DNA from: Chaetoceros tenuissimus
Lineage: Eukaryota > Bacillariophyta > Thalassiosirophyceae > Chaetocerotales > Chaetocerotaceae
Assembly: GCA_021927905.1 (NCBI GenBank)
Contig: BLLK01000045.1
Coordinates: forward strand, 1,860,001 to 1,924,000
Direction of reading: 5' to 3'
Length of the DNA: 64,000 bases
How positions within the stretch are numbered: position 1 is the stretch's first letter; each line of letters begins with the position of its first letter. Position numbers and translations under genes: made by a program. The notes beneath the pieces are model-generated. The model saw only the letters and a program-made list of their open reading frames with translations, had not been told where the DNA came from and made no database searches. This document shows, in pieces, positions 8,532-39,658 of the stretch.

Positions 8532-9365
8532 ATGAAGATTCTTTACTACACAATTTTGTCTGGGTTCATTGCAGGATCTTCTGCTTTTGCTCCAATTTCA
8601 ACAAATGTCCAATTGAAATCATCGACATCTTTCTCGCTTCAGGCAAAGAATCAAGTCAATAATGACTTGGAATCTTCTCCTTTGAAAGCTTTTGATTTCC
8701 CAGAGTCCAACTTTGATGAAAATACCTTCAATTTGAAGTCATTGGCTCCATTGGCAGTTGCATCAGTTGCACTCGCTCCATTATCGGCAGAAGCTGCAAC
8801 TGGAACAAATCAAGTTGCTTCAGCTTTTGTTGCATATGGGCATTACCTTTCACTTTTTGTAATGGTTGGATCTCTCATGTTTGAAAGACTTACAATTGAA
8901 CCAAATATGTCAAAAGATACAGAAAAGACTCTTGTATTTGCTGATGCTATCTATGGTGCATCTGCTGTAGCACTTTTGGTTTCAGGATACTTTAGAGCTG
9001 TAGAGTATGGTAAGGGTTGGTTCTATTATTCCCATGAATCTTTATTCTGGGTCAAGATGATTTTTTTCTGTATTCTTGGATCTGCTTCCCTTTTTCCAAC
9101 CATCACATCTATCAAGAGATTTGTCGCTGCGCAGGGAGATTCATGGGAACCAATGTCAGACAAACTTGCTTCAAGAATGAAGTCTGTAATTAATGCTGAA
9201 TTGGTTATGATGGGATCTATCCCTTTGAGTGCAACACTTATGAGTAGAGGTGTGGGATATACTGAGGCTATTCCTGTAGAAATCATTGGGCCAGTTTTAA
9301 CTGCCCTTACAGCTGTTGGGCTTGGAATCAAGTATGCGAAAGAAGCAATCACCTGGGAAGAGTAA
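8532..9365 (+). CDS. plastid-targeted DUF2214-like membrane protein
   Basis: A 277-residue intronless protein. Residues 1-20 are a signal peptide ending GSSAFAP, the classic diatom ASAFAP plastid motif, followed by a Ser/Thr/Lys transit region. A second hydrophobic Ala-rich segment (PLAVASVALAPLSAEAA, about residues 71-88) could be a thylakoid signal or a further helix. The mature part has about four transmembrane helices: AYGHYLSLFVMVGSLMFERL, a helix near ASAVALLVSGYFRA, MIFFCILGSASLFP and a C-terminal GPVLTALTAVGLG. This pattern matches the cyanobacterial DUF2214 family of unknown function. Plastid membrane location is well supported by the presequence. A broken partial copy lies 0.6 kb upstream. 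Confidence 0.75.
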   Translation: MKILYYTILSGFIAGSSAFAPISTNVQLKSSTSFSLQAKNQVNNDLESSPLKAFDFPESNFDENTFNLKSLAPLAVASVALAPLSAEAATGTNQVASAFVAYGHYLSLFVMVGSLMFERLTIEPNMSKDTEKTLVFADAIYGASAVALLVSGYFRAVEYGKGWFYYSHESLFWVKMIFFCILGSASLFPTITSIKRFVAAQGDSWEPMSDKLASRMKSVINAELVMMGSIPLSATLMSRGVGYTEAIPVEIIGPVLTALTAVGLGIKYAKEAITWEE

Positions 9366-9442
9366 ATTGATTGGTGCAAAGGAAACATGCTATGGTAATA
9401 TTACGTCATGCTAACTTAATGTTTTATTCTAAAATATACGAA

Positions 9443-9541
9443 ATGATACATCTCAGGGCAAATATTTGTCACAATTGTGCTTCAATAAATTGAGGAAACA
9501 TCAATTGATCATTCATACGAGCTAGGACTGAGATGTCTCAT
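9443..9541 (-). promoter_or_regulatory. candidate SECIS element in the 3' UTR of the DsbA-like gene
   Basis: Read on the minus strand, a 14-nt arm (9541-9528) pairs at 13 of 14 positions with 9456-9443. Inside, GTAT/ATAT forms a short stem, then ATGA (9512-9509) faces TGAC (9471-9468), giving the U.U, A.G and G.A non-canonical pairs of the SECIS quartet. Above it CAATTG pairs with CAATTG (9507-9502 with 9477-9472); after a bulged A, TGTTTC pairs with GAAGCA (9500-9495 with 9483-9478, one G.U). The 11-nt apical loop CTCAATTTATT holds the expected AA. It starts 28 nt past the stop codon. The distance from ATGA to AA (17 nt) is longer than usual. Folded by eye. Confidence 0.7.
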
Positions 9542-9568
9542 CCCCAATTTAATAAATTGTAAAAAGTC

Positions 9569-10366
9569 TTATTCATTCATCAACTCCTCAAGTTCGGATG
9601 CTATAAATTCAGGAGGATATGCTCCACTGAAAGTAATTGGCTTTGTTTTCTTTGCGCTTTCTCCATCGGTCTTCTCTATTATAAAGAAAGGCACACCGCT
9701 AATTCCTTGATGCTTGTGATATGAATCTTTTTCAAGGACATGTTTCAACATTTCATCGTCTTGCGCAGCCATTAATGCCTTTGAAGCCTCTTCAGAATCT
9801 TCTCCAAAAACATTTCTAACAATTAGGGTTAGGGTATCCACACTGTTTGGACTGAGTCCTTGTTCGAAATAATTCTCAAATAGGGAAGTCATGATACTAT
9901 TCGCCTCTTCAGAATCTTCACCTTTGGTCAGCTTCACATGTTCCATAAGTGCGTGCGCGCGTCTAGCTGGAAATATCTTACGATCCTTCTTGAAAGTGAT
10001 TCCGACCTTTGCAGCTGTTTCGTCCAATTGAGACTTGGCACCTAGAAATCTTTTGGCTGCGGCTGCTCCATACTTTTTTGTTATATATTCTTCGAACTCA
10101 ACTCCACCATCTTCCATATTTGGGTTTAGAAGAAAAGGCTCCCACACAAGCCTATAGTCTACACCCGAATCTTTGCCGGCTTTTTCAAGGTTGCGTAGAC
10201 CGATAAAACAGTAGGGTCACACAACATCCGAAACTATGGTAACCTTTATTGGTGGTGTGTTCTTGCTTGTTGTTGTACTCATGTTGGAAAGATTATTTAC
10301 CCAAAGTTGACTTCTTCGAAATGAATTCCGACTGTCTGCCAATAGCAATGTATGGAGTATTTTCAT
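9569..10366 (-). CDS. DsbA/FrnE-family selenoprotein (UxxC redox motif)
   Basis: The reading frame is continuous from 10366 to 9569 except for one TGA at 10217-10219. Around it the protein reads IKVTIVSDVV, then TGA, then PYCFIGLRNLEKAG, and later WEPFLLNPNM. In FrnE-like DsbA thioredoxin-fold proteins this place is SDxxCPWC, so the TGA replaces the first active-site Cys, giving U-P-Y-C. The rest is the usual all-helical insertion and closing strand with a cis-Pro site (GISGVPFFII). A SECIS-like hairpin lies 28 nt after the stop. Counting selenocysteine, the product has 265 residues from the Met at 10366; starts at 10414 or 10282 are also possible. The Arg/Ser-rich N-terminus looks mitochondrial. 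Role: thiol-disulfide oxidoreductase or isomerase, partner unknown. DsbA-type selenoproteins are known from some algae. Confidence 0.85.
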
Positions 10367-30844: not shown

Positions 30845-33800
30845 ATGGATCTATCAGAAGCACTCAAATTCAATTCCAAAGAATGCGTCAAGAAATCAGA
30901 AGTAGAACCGACACTTAGTAGAAATAGGTCAGGACTCACTCACTCCTGTGCTAGTTCCAATGGGACAGCTCTATTTCATTATTTACCTCAAACACAAACT
31001 ATTACATTGTATCAATCAAGCACCAATTATACTCCTTTGTCCCAATTCCATGCAAAAGACGTTATTCATATGTCGTGTTCATTTGATGGAAGGTTGCTCC
31101 TTTTACTACATTCAGATTCATCAGTTACATGTATAGATGTTACCTCTGGAGGAATGACTGTTAGATTTACGCTTCAGGATGTGCATTCCCACTCCAGCGT
31201 TTATGGAATGCACACTGTTGGGAAAAGGCTACGAGCAAATATACATCGAGGTCCTGTACATTCAGTCACATTCAATAATACATCTGGGTATGATTGTCTA
31301 GTAGTAGATGCAGTCAAGGGAATTATGCTGATTGACTGCCAGGCGGGAGGAATCAAACGTACTATTTCCAATCAGAGTCTTCCATCGAACATTTTGTGTG
31401 CGGATTGGGACTACAACGGCGAAGATGGCGACCTTGTGGCTGGTTTTGAAGATGGTAGTATTGCACTCATGCATACTCAAGATGACATGGAGATTATCAT
31501 TCCAGATGCTGTAGAAGAAAATGATGAAGAAGTCAATTGGTCATGTACACATATTCAATCATTTCCAAACCATATCGCAGTTGGGTTATGTCGCGTATTT
31601 GATGGGGAAGATGAAAATGATAATGATATCTCTGAAGAAGATCTGGATGAAGATGATGAAGCATCACATGAAGCAAACTTACTGATTTACAGTAGAGAGT
31701 CAAGAGAGTGGACTGAATTGGGAGATGTGGTTGCCTTTTTTGCAGTTCCAATGTTTGGGCGCCACGTGTTTTACACTACTTTTCTGTCGAAGCAAAATAT
31801 TTTACTCGTTGGATGTAATGTTACCGGTGAAGCAGGGATTGTCGCCGAAACTGATGGCGAGTGGCAAGTGTGTGAGTTACAGGAAGGAGATAATGCCACT
31901 ACTCCACTCACAGAGGATGATGAATTCACACTTCCAACTGGATTATCATGTGTACCCGATGGAAGTAGTCACTTGAATCTAGTCATGAGTTCCACAGATG
32001 GCTCACTTTCAGTTTTTGATATAGAGCATATTGAAGATGATAAATTTGCTGTATCAGAGAGTGTTGGCCCTTGGGCAGTTACAAATGCAACCGTTGAGGA
32101 GACTGTACTGCAGGAAGAAAAAAATGCAGCAGTAGAGACTACCAGGGAAGTTGAAGAGATACAAGGTACTGACAAAGATAGCAATGCAGAGACAAGTGTA
32201 GTTGAAGAAGCGGAACAAAACCAAGAGAAAGAAGGTGTCACTTCTGCGTTTGGTAGTGGCTCAAGCAGTGGTTTCTCGTTTGGGACATCGACAGCGACAA
32301 CGCCAGCATTCGGTAGTGCTACTTCTAAACCTGTATTTGGTTCAACGACGCCTTTTGGCTCACCATCTACATCTACTCCAACTTCAGCTCCGTTTGGTGG
32401 AGCTGTATTCGGAAGCACTTCGGGACTATCTTCCACAACATCTTCATTTGGATCTCCGGCCTTTGGTCTATCTAGTGTGAAACAAGGCGCATTCTCACTT
32501 GCGTCAAAGGCAACTCAGAGTGAATCTGCCCCACAGCTGTCAGAAGCTGAAAAGAATGCGCCTGTCTTTGGCTCAGGGTCTTCAGCTCCTGTCTTTGGAT
32601 CTGGAACAACCCCTGCATTTGGATCAGGATCTTCAGCACCTGTTTTTGGTTCGGGGACAAAACCTACATTTGGAACGACATCAAGTGGGTTCGGTTCTCT
32701 CGCACAGTCTTCAGTCAATGGATTTGGAGCTTTGGCATCTACAGTCACCAGTGAGAGCAAAGAATTTGGATTCAATAATACCCCAAGAAAGCAGCAATCA
32801 ATATTTGGCATGTCTACACCGATAGACAAAACAAAATTGGATTCTAGTATGATAAAACCATTGTTTAGAGAACAAAGCCCAGTAAAGGACGGTAACTTGG
32901 ACAGAGCCAATCCTACCAAAAACACGAGGGATGATATTGTAGACATTGTTCCTTCAACAGCCCAAGCTAAACACGCTGAAAAAGCCTTCGATATCATTGA
33001 CCAAGACAAGGCTCAAAAAGTACCTACTAGCAAACTTGATGAGCTTGTTGATGAGGTCGGTGAAGGTCTCCATGGTGATGAGCTTGATAAACAGCTAGCA
33101 ATCCTTGATCCTGATAGCACAGGATACATCACACGTACATCTTTCATCCACTGGTACTGCAAGCTTGTCGAAGGCAGCGATGATGATGATGACGGCTCCC
33201 TTGACACCGATGAGCGCGAAGAAAGAGAAGAAGAAAGAAACAAAGCCACGGACGCGTTTGACTCAGTTGCAAATGCTGGTATTATTCATAAGTCCGAGTT
33301 TGGCGACTTGATGGAAGCCATGGGTACAACCTACTGCGAAGAAGAGCATCGTCGTACTTTGCGTAAGATCAGTGATGATGATGGCAATATTACTCAAGAA
33401 GCATTTGTGAGCTGGTACATGGACTGGCTGTTTGGTGATGGAGACTCTGACTCTGACTACTCCGACGAAGAGAATGACGAAACAGACCAGCAAGACAGTA
33501 CTGCTGGTGCTGCATCGTCTTCATCAGGCTGGGGTAGTACATTTGCTGTAGATAAGGACTCTTGGAAGTGTGAATCATGTATGCTTCGCAACAAGGGCAG
33601 TGATGTGAAATGCGTAGCATGTGAGACAGTCAGACCAGGTCATGAGGACAAGGTGACTGCAGTCGACAAGAAAGATACACCGAGCTCATCAACGGGTAGC
33701 GGCTTTACTTTTAGCTCTGCCAATGCGAATACAAGTGCAGCAACAGGAGGAGGAGGAAGTAGTGGTGACTTTTCGTTTGGTTTCAGTGGGACACCTGCAC

Positions 33801-36800
33801 CAGCGCAATCATCGACAACGACAACTGGAGGTGGTAGTGGAGGATTTTCGTTTGGTTTCAGTGGGACACCTGCACCAGCACCAGCCACATCATCAACTGA
33901 TAAAAAGGAAGGAGAAGCTGTTCCAAAGAGCACTACTGGTTTTACTTTTGGATTGCCTGCGTCGGATAAAAATGAAAAACCATCAGCTGATATTGTAGAC
34001 ATTGTTCCTTCAACAGCCCAAGCTAAACACGCTGAAAAAGCCTTCGATATCATTGACCAAGACAAGGCTCAAAAAGTACCTACTAGCAAACTTGATGAGC
34101 TTGTTGATGAGGTCGGTGAAGGTCTCCATGGTGATGAGCTTGATAAACAGCTAGCAATCCTTGATCCTGATAGCATAGGATACATCACACGTACATCTTT
34201 CATCCACTGGTACTGCAAGCTTGTCGAAGGCAGCGATGATGATGATGACGGCTCCCTTGACACCGATGAGCGCGAAGAAAGAGAAGAAGAAAGAAACAAA
34301 GCCACGGACGCGTTTGACTCAGTTGCAAATGCTGGTATTATTCATAAGTCCGAGTTTGGCGACTTGATGGAAGCCATGGGTACAACCTACTGCGAAGAAG
34401 AGCATCGTCGTACTTTGCGTAAGATCAGTGATGATGATGGCAATATTACTCAAGAAGCATTTGTGAGCTGGTACATGGACTGGCTGTTTGGTGATGGAGA
34501 CTCTGACTCTGACTACTCCGACGAAGAGAATGACGAAACAGACCAGCAAGACAGTACTGCTGGTGCTGCATCGTCTTCATCAGGCTGGGGTAGTACATTT
34601 GCTGTAGATAAGGACTCTTGGAAGTGTGAATCATGTATGCTTCGCAACAAGGGCAGTGATGTGAAATGCGTAGCATGTGAGACAGTCAGACCAGGTCATG
34701 AGGACAAGGTGACTGCAGTCGACAAGAAAGATACACCGAGCTCATCAACGGGTAGCGGCTTTACTTTTAGCTCTGCCAATGCGAATACAAGTGCAGCAAC
34801 AGGAGGAGGAGGAAGTAGTGGTGACTTTTCGTTTGGTTTCAGTGGGACACCTGCACCAGCGCAATCATCGACAACGACAACTGGAGGTGGTAGTGGAGGA
34901 TTTTCGTTTGGTTTCAGTGGGACACCTGCACCAGCACCAGCCACATCATCAACTGATAAAAAGGAAGGAGAAGCTGTTCCAAAGAGCACTACTGGTTTTT
35001 CTTTTACTACGTCGGCTTCGAAGTTGACCTTTGGTGGCAATAATCAAGTTTCTTCATCGTCATCTTCAGCGTTCCCACCTATGTCAGCAAAGGCTCCTAC
35101 TCCTTTTGGTTCTACAAACAAGACTACTACTACTACTACAGCGAATAAGCCAGCTTCTTCTTCTGCGTTTCCACCTATGTCAGCAAAGGCTCCTACTCCT
35201 TTCGGTGGTGCAACAGCGAGTAAGCCAGCTTCATCTTCAGCGTTCCCACCTATGTCAGCAAAGGCTCCTACTCCTTTTGGTGCTACAAACAAGACTACTA
35301 CTACAACAGCGAATAAGTCAGCTTCCTCTTCAGCGTTCCCACCTATGTCAGCAAAGGCTCCTACTCCTTTCGGTGGTGCAACAGCTAGTAAGGCAGCTTC
35401 ATCTTCAGCGTTCCCACCTATGTCAGCAAAGGCTCCTACTCCTTTTGGTGCTACAACCAAGACTACTACTACAACAGCGAATAAGCCAGCTTCATCTTCA
35501 GCGTTCCCACCTATGTCTGCAAAGGCTCCTACTCCTTTCGGTGGTGCAACAGCTAGTAAGGCAGCTTCATCTTCAGCGTTCCCACCTATGTCAGCAAAGG
35601 CTCCTACTCCTTTCGGTACTACAAACAAGACTACTACTACTACAGCGAATAAGCCAGCTTCATCTTCAGCTTTCCAACCTATGTCTGCAAAGGCTCCTAC
35701 TCCTTTTGGTTCTACAACCAAGACTGCTGCATCAACTAGTAAGCCAGCTTTATCTTCAGCGTTCCCACCTATGTCAGCAAAGGCTCCTATTCCTTTCGGT
35801 GCTACAATCAAGACTACTACTACTACTACAGCGAATAAGCCAGCTTCATCTTCAGCGTTCCCACCTATGTCAGCAAAGGCTCCTACTCCTTTCGGTGCTA
35901 CAATCAAGACTACTACTACTACTACAGCGAATAAGCCAGCTTTATCTTCAGCGTTCCCACCTATGTCAGCAAAGGCTCCTACTCCTTTTGGTGCTACAAC
36001 AGCTAGTAAGCCAGCTTCATCTTCTGCGTTCCCACCTATGTCAGCAAAGGCTCCTACTCCTTTCGGTGCCACAACCAAGACTACTACTACTACAGCGAAT
36101 AAGCCAGCTTTATCTTCAGCGTTCCCACCTATGTCAGCAAAGGCTCCTACTCCTTTCGGTGGTGCAACAGCTAGTAAGCCAGCTTCCTCTTCTGCGTTCC
36201 CACCTATGTCAGCAAAGGCTCCTACTCCTTTTGGTGCTACAACAGCTAGTAAGCCAGCTTCATCTTCAGCGTTCCCACCTATGTCAGGAAAGGCTCCTAC
36301 TCCTTTTGGTGCTACAACCAAGACTGCTGCATCAACTAGTAAGCCAGCTTTATCTTCAGCGTTCCCACCTATGTCTGCAAAGGCTCCTACTCCTTTTGGT
36401 GCTACAACCAAGACTGCTGCATCAACTAGTAAGCCAGCTTCATCTTCAGCGTTTCCACCTATGTCAGCAAAGGCTCCTACTCCTTTTGGTAATAACGAAG
36501 GAACAAATGTTAGCAAGTCTACGATGCAGTCTGTCATATCTGCAAGCAGGAAAATGGATTATGTTCCAGCAAATGAATATGAATCTCAATTTTGGAGGAT
36601 TTTATCCGATTACGAAAAGACACTGCAAGATCTCAAGTCTGTCGACTGTGAGCAGAAAATTGACACTAAAGGAGTCAATTCTATGGTCCAACAAATTGAG
36701 AAAGCCCTTGGCGAGTTGTCGTCGTTAAAAAGTGATGTATGTAGTGACAATGATTTTTCTCTCCTACTTTTGAGTCGCAGTGATGATATTGAAAGACAGA

Positions 36801-39658
36801 TTGATGCATCAAAGAAAGTAATAAGTGCCCATTTTGATCATGATCAGAAAGTTAGCGAAAGTGACTCAGTCCAATCTTTGGATATCGAATCTGAAAGAAA
36901 TAGACGAAAAATATTACACAAATCCTTGGGCATCAAGAATTCCATTAATCGCCTTAATGATTTGATTGATCTGACATCTTCCATGAAGAAGAAGACAGAG
37001 GTTGCCTCAAAACCTAACTTATTTTCTTGGACACCTTCACGTCGTACTAGGAAGAGCAGTGCTCCTAGAGGTGACAGAATCCTTGTGAAGCAGCTCATGT
37101 CTGGATATGAGCGCGCGAAGGAACTAGAAAGACATGTACACTCTGCATCACGAAGACTTGAAGAGTTCTCGCATGTAGAAGCAGAGAAGAAAAAATTGTC
37201 TTTGTCAAATGCAGTGGTAACAAAAACAAAAGGAGGCCGTAGTAGGATTACAGCACTTCCATTTTCATCTCCAAAGTCGAAATCTTTTGCTGCTCCTTCG
37301 CAGACTTGCAAAGTATCAAAAATTCTTGCAAAGGATGCAATGAAACTTATGCAGGAAAGTTTTAGCATTAATCCAAAATCATTCAAGGTGCATTCGTTAT
37401 CTTCGTCATCAAATGATCAAAATCAATCTACATCATCTTCTTGGCGGACTAAAAGTACTTCGCAAATGATGAAACTAGGTACTCATCCTGCAAGCAGCGG
37501 CAAAAGCACTTCAAATTTTCTTTTAACAAGTGGGGAAAATAGTGCAAGTGCTAGATCAATTTGGCACCAAAGTGACTCAGCAGGTATGGAGTCTGTAAAG
37601 TTATCTTTGCCATCAACTCTCAAGCAAATTGACGCTGCCAAGGCCGCAAAAGAAGCTTTGGCTCCATTTGGAGTCACTCCAGACGAAATGACTACGGTGA
37701 AAAAAGCTTTGCATCGAGGGGATACTCTGAGTGTCGAAAATCAAGCAACTAAGCCTACAGTCAAGGTTGCAGTCAAGAAGGGAAATAAGACTGCTGCTTT
37801 TCCACCATTGTCTGTGAAGGCTCCAACACCTTTTGGTGCTTCCAACTTAGTCGGTACAAGCAAAGGACCTACTTCGTCGTCTTCAACAACCGCAACTTCT
37901 ACCACAAAACCATTAGAGTCTTCTGCAAAAAATAAAGAATTGAAGAAGACTAATAGTTCTGCAAAATTTCCTCCAATGTCTACCAAAGCTCCAACCCCTT
38001 TTGGTGCAACTACAAAACAAAGCGCTGACTCAAAATCAGAAAATAAGGCAGCGGTTGCATTTTCTTTGCCAAAGACAGATATTTCTCTTTCAAAAACCAC
38101 AAGCAACGATCAGATGAAACAGAAAGAAAGTACGAAAAGCAGTCTCTTTGGAGGTTTTGGTGGTATGGGGAAAGCTCTTGATATACCGTCTACAAAGCAA
38201 GATCTTTTTGGTTCGACTACGAAAAAAGGTGACGATTCTGTGGACTATCTTACCATCATGACTAAGTTTTACCAACAGCATAATCCTTCTAAAGTCGGAG
38301 AAGTGCCAAAGACTCTACAAAAATATCAGGTAAGCGCAGATTTATGTGTTTTTCATTACATGCATAGAATATTTGTCAAGTTTCTTACAGAATAATATTC
38401 AATAGGGGCGGGAAAAAGAACTTTTCGAGAAACTTGCAAAGAAATATAATGTTCCTAATCCACTTAATGAGAAGAAGGCAGAGCAAACTGCTCCTCCTCC
38501 TCCAACTTTTGGAAGTACAAGTCAAACTACACAAATTTCCACATCAAGTGGTTCTTCGCCTGATTACAAGGCAATTTTGACCAAATTTTATCAAACCCAC
38601 AATCCTTCAAAGATATCAGAGGTTGAGAAGAACCTTGTCAAATATCAGGTACGTACGCCATGAAAAACGTTCTCTTATTCAGATGTATTTTTCAATTAAC
38701 ATGGGATTGTTTTGAACAGGGTCGGGAAAGGGAAATGTTTGCAAAACTCGCGTTGAAGTACAAGGTTCCAGATCCATTGTCGGAAGAAAGTGGTACATCG
38801 CCATTTGGAGGAGCTCAAGCTTCTACAGGATTCGGTGCATCAAATACATCGTCAGGCTTTGGCGCAATCAGTAGCTCTTCTCCTTTTGGAAGTACTCCAC
38901 AAAAGGCTTCATCTTCTAACGTTTCTCCATTTGGAAATTCTGGAAACTCTTCAACCCCTTTTGGAGGTGTAGGAAGCTCAGCAATCAAACCTTCAGCATC
39001 ACCTTTTGGTCAGTCGTCAGGTTTTGCTCCTTCTCCCTCTCCCTTTGGTCAACAAGCCCCAAGTCCGTCACCATTTGGTCAATCTGCAGCTCCGTCACCA
39101 TTTGGTCAAACTTTGGCACAGACTTCAACCCCTTTTGGTCAACAGGCTTCATCACAAAAGCTTTTTGGTGGAAAAACGGCTCGTGAACACCTCACTCTCT
39201 TCTATCAACAAAAAAATCCATCGAAAATTGGAGATGTTGATAAGCTTCTAGCTAAATATGCAGGAAAAGAAGAGCAGCTCCTTGCGAATCTTGCAAAGAA
39301 ATACAATATCAGTCCAGCAACATTTGGACTTGGCGGTGCTCCTGTGGCTGCTCCAGCTTTTGGAAGCCCGTCAGCCATGGGTGGAGGTAATGCATTTGGC
39401 CAAACTTCACCTATGGGTGGAGGTGGTGGATTTGGAAGTCCATCTCCGGCACCTAGTTCTGGATTTGGGTCGTTTGGAGCAGCAGCTCAAGCCCCTTCAC
39501 AAGGATTTGGAGGATTTGGTGCTGCTCCAGCATCTGGAGGTTTTGGTACAGCGGCACAAGCTCCAAGTGGCTTTGGAGCTACTGCTCCAGCATCAGGAGG
39601 TTTTGGATCCAGCTCAGGGTTTGGTGCAGCTACACCATTTGGATCAGCAAGAAGATAA
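30845..39658 (+). CDS. giant FG-nucleoporin (Nup214/Nup159-like) with EF-hand and RanBP2 zinc-finger modules
   Basis: Exons 30845-38329, 38406-38648 and 38720-39658; 2888 residues. Residues 1-430 look like the beta-propeller of Nup214/Nup159. Residues 463-680 have FG/GFG motifs. A module of about 337 residues occurs twice (about 696-1033 and 1048-1385): four EF-hand-like helix pairs (AFDIIDQDKAQKVPTSKLDEL, LDPDSTGYITRTSFIHWY), an acidic spacer, a RanBP2-type zinc finger (WKCESC...CVAC) and FG sequence. Residues 1407-1882 repeat SSAFPPMSAKAPTPFG about twenty times. A helical region follows, then three copies of an FYxxxNPSK...LxKY-G-(R/K)-E module with FG sequence between. It should lie at the cytoplasmic or nuclear face of the pore. 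Both introns fall at the same codon of the terminal module (KYQ|GRE). Confidence 0.82.
32932..34999 (+). repeat. near-perfect 1-kb direct duplication within the nucleoporin
   Basis: Bases 32932-33943 recur at 33988-34999, offset 1056 bp, with 44 bp between. By eye I found one difference, C at 33120 and T at 34176, changing Thr to Ile in DPDS(T/I)GYI. The unit encodes the EF-hand, zinc-finger and FG block. Confidence 0.93.
35060..36490 (+). repeat. FG repeat array PPMSAKAPTPFG
   Basis: About twenty units of roughly 57-81 bp, each encoding SSAFPPMSAKAPTPFG followed by a Thr/Lys/Ser/Ala linker of variable length (for example GATTASKPA or TTTTANKPA). One FG per unit. Two further diverged units occur near 37800 and 37970. 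Antisense ORFs across this array are artefacts of repetition. Confidence 0.95.
38330..38405 (+). other. first intron of the nucleoporin gene
   Basis: 76 bp; donor GTAAGC after KYQ, acceptor CAATAG before GGGCGGGAA (GRE). Phase 0. Confidence 0.75.
38649..38719 (+). other. second intron of the nucleoporin gene
   Basis: 71 bp; donor GTACGT after KYQ, acceptor GAACAG before GGTCGGGAA (GRE). Phase 0, same codon position in the repeat as the first intron. Confidence 0.75.

Follow-up and report, generated by a model that had tools for sequence, protein, structure and literature searches.

The locus examined here raises the question of whether an in-frame TGA, on the minus strand of a 64,000-nucleotide stretch of Chaetoceros tenuissimus DNA (the window), is a stop codon or a codon for selenocysteine (Sec). 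The reading frame runs from the ATG at 10364–10366 to the TAA at 9569–9571 (coding sequence 9569..10366, minus strand; 265 codons plus the stop) and is open throughout except for a single TGA at codon 50 (10217..10219, minus), in the context SDVV-U-PYCFIG. Two starts are possible, Met1 and Met29, the latter encoded by a second ATG at 10280–10282 (minus). The readthrough protein has 265 residues and a mass of 29.7 kDa (with Cys in place of Sec); without readthrough the gene shows up as two frames, and an ordinary gene finder would split it into two ORFs, as an earlier note on this DNA had anticipated. The product is very probably a DsbA/FrnE-type oxidoreductase with Sec as the attacking residue, its UGA decoded by means of a SECIS element.

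The readthrough protein matches the DSBA family (PF01323) over residues 42–259, with an E-value of 4e-20 and a score of 72.8 bits against a curated cut-off of 25.6, while a search of NCBIfam returned one match only, far under its cut-off. One of its nearest known counterparts is FrnE, which we take to be bacterial. At E ≤ 0.001, the sole matches to sequences of solved structure were FrnE (PDB codes 5cnw and 5cp1; E 3e-16) and SCO1869 (PDB code 3gl5; E 9e-8). The FrnE structures align over residues 33–249 with no gap through the TGA site, and the homology therefore spans the TGA. The active-site motif is CPWC in FrnE and UPYC in the window gene, such that FrnE has a Cys at the first position where the window gene has its TGA. 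The earlier note had placed the TGA where the first active-site Cys belongs, with the protein running on normally on either side; both points hold, as the frame is intact and the homology crosses the site. In an alignment of 16 sequences, one of which starts after the TGA site, Pro51 and Cys53 are near-invariant, and Val225 and Pro226 are invariant. Cys53 (codon at 10208..10210, minus) is the second, resolving Cys of the U50-P-Y-C53 motif, and Pro226 (9689..9691, minus), in the V225-P226 pair of the GVPFF loop, is presumably the cis-Pro of the thioredoxin fold. Removal of the TGA by splicing or through a sequence error, such that the mRNA reads Cys or skips the site, is very improbable on this evidence, since homology is gapless through the site and excision would delete conserved residues.

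A protein search with the window protein found 473 relatives, and the residue at the TGA position was counted in the 120 that were listed. This residue is Cys in 72 (68 CPWC and 4 CPFC) and Trp in eight, all WPFC; the other 40 start downstream of the site. The comparison with homologues that the earlier note proposed as a check thus aligns the in-frame TGA with a Cys, in these relatives as in FrnE. The four CPFC relatives are of an algal-looking type, and judging by them, the site does not hold Sec in every case. A Trp in an otherwise like site would be the output expected from gene calling that reads TGA as Trp. The five closest of the listed relatives, which are 60–96% identical, start at residues 84–89, a pattern that an upstream stop codon would produce. 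One of them, P0004, bears an identifier of MMETSP, presumably the transcriptome project. Among viral contigs, the DNA of the relatives yielded one Cys-type locus (L037, ICPWC), and the same search in genome contigs found no locus.

The relatives predicted to begin after the site could also be expected if the gene were decayed, its TGA being a stop that disables it and the frame beyond either a leftover or a protein with a start of its own. We regard decay as highly unlikely: the frame is unbroken before and after the TGA, one relative is 96% identical over 182 residues past the site, the upstream SDVV part aligns with both the Cys and the Trp relatives, a SECIS-like element follows the gene, and a TGA at the same site recurs in two diverged paralogues (described below). 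Splicing or error is opposed here too, because the five closest listed relatives come from other sources and are likewise predicted to begin after the site, P0004 with its MMETSP identifier among them, and because the two paralogues show the same pattern.

The SECIS-like element lies in the 3′ UTR (9440..9544, minus) and comprises outer stem arms at 9528–9544 and 9440–9456, a quartet in which ATGA (9509..9512) faces TGAC (9468..9471), and an inner hairpin (9472–9508) with helix II and the apical part, all on the minus strand. Its ATGA core is 57 nt past the stop codon. The fold computed for the 139 nt that follow the stop has an energy of −34 kcal/mol, compared with −23.0 ± 3.5 kcal/mol for 200 dinucleotide shuffles (z −3.1), two of which were equally good. 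The ATGA facing TGAC and the 12-bp helix II with one bulge, both described in the earlier note, are seen in the computed fold. The hairpin does lie past the stop, but its outer stem begins 25 nt after it rather than 28, and this stem has 7 + 9 bp around one mismatch instead of the 13/14 bp first proposed. The stop of a convergent neighbouring frame (8532–9365, plus strand; 277 codons) and the far arm of the element are 74 nt apart, so the two 3′ UTRs may overlap.

The identity of the apical motif depends on spacing. The rule for eukaryotic SECIS elements, as set out in the available part of PMC2375036, calls for an NTGA/GA quartet with AA or CC 10–13 nt away and, in its continuation, a GA 15–39 nt beyond the AA or CC, together with energy limits. 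The AA assigned by the earlier note to the apical loop is placed there by the minimum free energy (MFE) fold, but it is 17 nt from ATGA, outside the 10–13 nt range. When the rule was recoded by us from that part of PMC2375036, with helix filters added and for ATGA only, the element passed with ATGA, a CC at 13 nt and 23 nt on to GA, with energies of −6.5 kcal/mol for the inner hairpin and −26.6 kcal/mol for the whole. The CC (9494..9495, minus), 13 nt after ATGA where AA is usual, is unpaired in the type II reading; leaving it unpaired adds a 4-bp mini-stem (TCAA/TTGA) to the inner hairpin, in a fold that costs 1.8 kcal/mol relative to the MFE fold (−6.5 versus −8.3 kcal/mol). Because of the published spacing (13 versus 17 nt), the apical motif in these modelled folds is better read as the CC of a type II SECIS than as an AA in an open apical loop, and type II, CC form, is the class of SECIS that suits the predicted element best.

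Further scans used a descriptor of our own (an AATGA or GATGA core, a closed inner hairpin, TGA and an outer stem); an earlier version of the scan had allowed any base before ATGA. The thresholds were set after the first candidates and positives had been seen, and the match rates therefore support the assignment and do not prove it. Over both strands of the window (128,000 nt) the descriptor matches two places, one of which is the element above. The second, at 35234 (minus), was set aside as a chance match antisense to a long repetitive frame at 30845–38395 (plus). That frame has 2516 codons, and the antisense translation near 35234 consists of many near-identical tandem units. Three places in the window pass the published distances, namely the element of the window gene, 37688 (plus) and 60291 (minus). 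On random order-1 sequence the descriptor gave 11 matches per 1.024 Mb. Rfam models returned no SECIS family on 9300–9700 at E-values up to 10, where two matches to other families were at chance level (E 6–8), and no SECIS on the whole window at the gathering score. RF00031 (SECIS_1), the only Rfam SECIS family run on the genome, found none there, with 133 of 890 candidates scored. This model seems insensitive in this genome, since other selenoprotein genes exist in it and yet were not matched.

The genome (41.03 Mb in 68 contigs) contains the machinery for Sec. Five matches to tRNA-Sec exceed the Rfam cut-off, three of which are called by ARAGORN as tRNA-Sec with a TCA anticodon, and SepSecS, SelD and an eEFSec domain were found as well. 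The other two tRNA-Sec-like matches, L004 and L005 (match from 1501), are over the Rfam cut-off and are not called by ARAGORN. The L005 match is longer by 12 nt, additional bases lying near TCA, and so would be an intron-bearing or decayed copy. The SelD match (L024, G000:C19) has no TGA within the matched stretch, in contrast to Thalassiosira pseudonana, where SPS2 is listed in the selenoproteome in the available part of PMC2375036.

Internal TGAs also occur in other selenoprotein families of the genome: three of five GPx matches, one of three Rdx matches, the single Sep15/SelM match and three of 11 MsrA matches contain one, and some SelT-type genes carry a TGA at the Sec site. The readthrough frames give the sites NVASKU, NVASRU, NVASEU, CTSU, CSGU and, twice, GUFW; L028, with its TGA at an exon start, is less clear. 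We take NVAS-x-U, CSG-U and G-U-FW to be the Sec sites of GPx, SelM and MsrA. Within 100 nt after the stop, the descriptor matches in seven of the 11 TGA-bearing loci, window gene included, in every case with an AATGA 5′ core 45–88 nt after the stop. It has no match in L016, L018, L028 and L030, and in the case of L018 and L028 the gene may extend beyond the exon that was found. The published distances are passed by four of the 11 loci, L012 (the window gene), L013, L014 and L023, the last a SelM-type gene that also passes as a CC form; L017, L021 and L029 pass the descriptor and fail these distances, and the four loci without a descriptor match fail both. As a control, the descriptor was run on 35 loci (L001–L035; 236,850 nt, both strands), where it matched seven distinct places that each follow the stop of a TGA-bearing gene, plus two distinct places elsewhere (one in L005 and one shared by L009 and L013). 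It found nothing in the 13 loci, drawn from these families and the machinery, that lack a TGA within their match (L015, L019, L020, L022, L024–L027 and L031–L035, with L020 and L022 overlapping).

These loci also bear on whether the TGA is decoded in another way than as Sec, either as Trp by a change of code or by plain readthrough. The Trp found at the site in some listed relatives would fit such a reading, which is nevertheless extremely improbable, as the genome has tRNA-Sec, Cys is the residue at the site in 72 of the 120 listed relatives (of 473), and TGA falls at NVAS-x-U, CSG-U and G-U-FW. Moreover, TGA ends eight of the 26 ATG-started window frames of at least 200 codons, some of them possibly spurious, and from these frames it seems to serve as a stop too in this genome. 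The earlier note had inferred Sec insertion from the coincidence of TGA and SECIS; that reading is now supported by the Sec machinery, the paralogue TGAs, the other selenoprotein families and the pattern of Cys, absence or Trp among the relatives.

All three DsbA-family loci found in the genome with the window protein (P0001), the window gene included, carry one TGA each, at the same site. The two paralogues, L013 and L014, are diverged (28% and 26% identity). The third locus was first found with PF01323 by a partial match that missed the TGA, and the protein search revealed it; matches to dPPR10 in the third paralogue (residues 178–279) were disregarded, as no stretch was significant alone. 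In L013 (minus, G000:C56) the site is SDLA-U-PWC, the N-terminus is hydrophobic and signal-like by eye, and a SECIS-like element has AA at 13 nt and its core 45 nt after the stop. Among the 120 relatives listed of 278, 98 begin after the site, 20 align only after it, one has Trp and one has Cys. In L014 (1336–2244, minus, G000:C54) the site is SDTL-U-PNG, which lacks the second Cys, and the SECIS-like core is 88 nt after the stop. Its 120 listed relatives (of 481) include 103 that start downstream of the site (to within 12 residues of the start) and seven whose alignment is confined to the part after it, different sequence standing upstream; the rest show WPNG (three), CPNG (one), other residues (five) or a gap (one). 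Some relatives of L013 and L014 carry the names Chaetoceros, Skeletonema, Thalassiosira, Cylindrotheca and Nitzschia. From these sequences, the L013 and L014 proteins look like conserved, often misannotated subfamilies, and the U-P-N-G type is apparently conserved in diatoms. This type, without a second Cys, is the least familiar part of the findings; its chemistry would involve a single selenol, through a selenenylsulfide or a glutathione-type reaction, in place of the customary disulfide exchange, which uses two residues. A tentative extension, to which we give slightly less than an even chance, is that this organism, and probably diatoms generally, has a three-member set of Sec-containing DsbA proteins (U-P-Y-C, U-P-W-C and U-P-N-G), of which U-P-N-G would be a diatom-wide, mostly misannotated one-selenol subfamily.

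In the U-P-Y-C protein of the window, UGA at codon 50 would be decoded by tRNA-Sec(UCA) delivered by eEFSec, as directed by a kink-turn SECIS in the 3′ UTR (type II, CC form). The selenolate would then attack or donate disulfides in thiol-disulfide exchange with substrates, and Cys53 would be its resolving partner, both by analogy with the family. We infer the insertion of Sec itself, as well as the redox reaction, its substrate and its compartment.

The window gene belongs to a known kind, since DsbA selenoproteins have been reported from algae and marine invertebrates. The available text of Jiang et al. 2020 (PMC7539508) describes algal selenoproteins of the DsbA kind, its discussion counts DSBA among the most widely distributed algal Sec proteins, and it gives diatoms 20–44 selenoprotein genes each; the window gene shares the family name and the use of Sec with these algal proteins, a likeness at the level of description. 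For Thalassiosira pseudonana, the available part of PMC2375036 gives 16 selenoproteins and names a thioredoxin-like protein and no DsbA. In animals, Ciona and Branchiostoma have DsbA selenoproteins with Sec at the first active-site Cys, as in the window gene, according to the consulted sections of PMC2874816; unlike the source of the window these are animals, and they are likened here by description rather than residue by residue. Form II is the type of both Ciona DsbA SECIS elements, the C. savignyi one with CC for AA, as in our reading; the Sec TGA of the C. intestinalis and B. floridae genes was formerly annotated as UTR (same sections of PMC2874816). Other marine invertebrates also have DsbA selenoproteins, as reported in the accessible part of PMC3473315. 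CC replaces AA apically in the SECIS elements of mammalian SelM and SelO as well, according to the excerpt of PMC3316567; those genes are unrelated, and the CC of the window element is read from spacing and fold.

The window gene thus adds to the DsbA selenoproteins already known from algae and animals. If the SECIS reading is true, it is also a case of a CC-type element in an algal DsbA gene. In each of the five closest listed relatives the predicted start lies past the site, so annotation tends to strip this redox enzyme of its active residue. What the genome contains points towards a set of Sec-dependent DsbA proteins in diatoms, which bears on their use of selenium.
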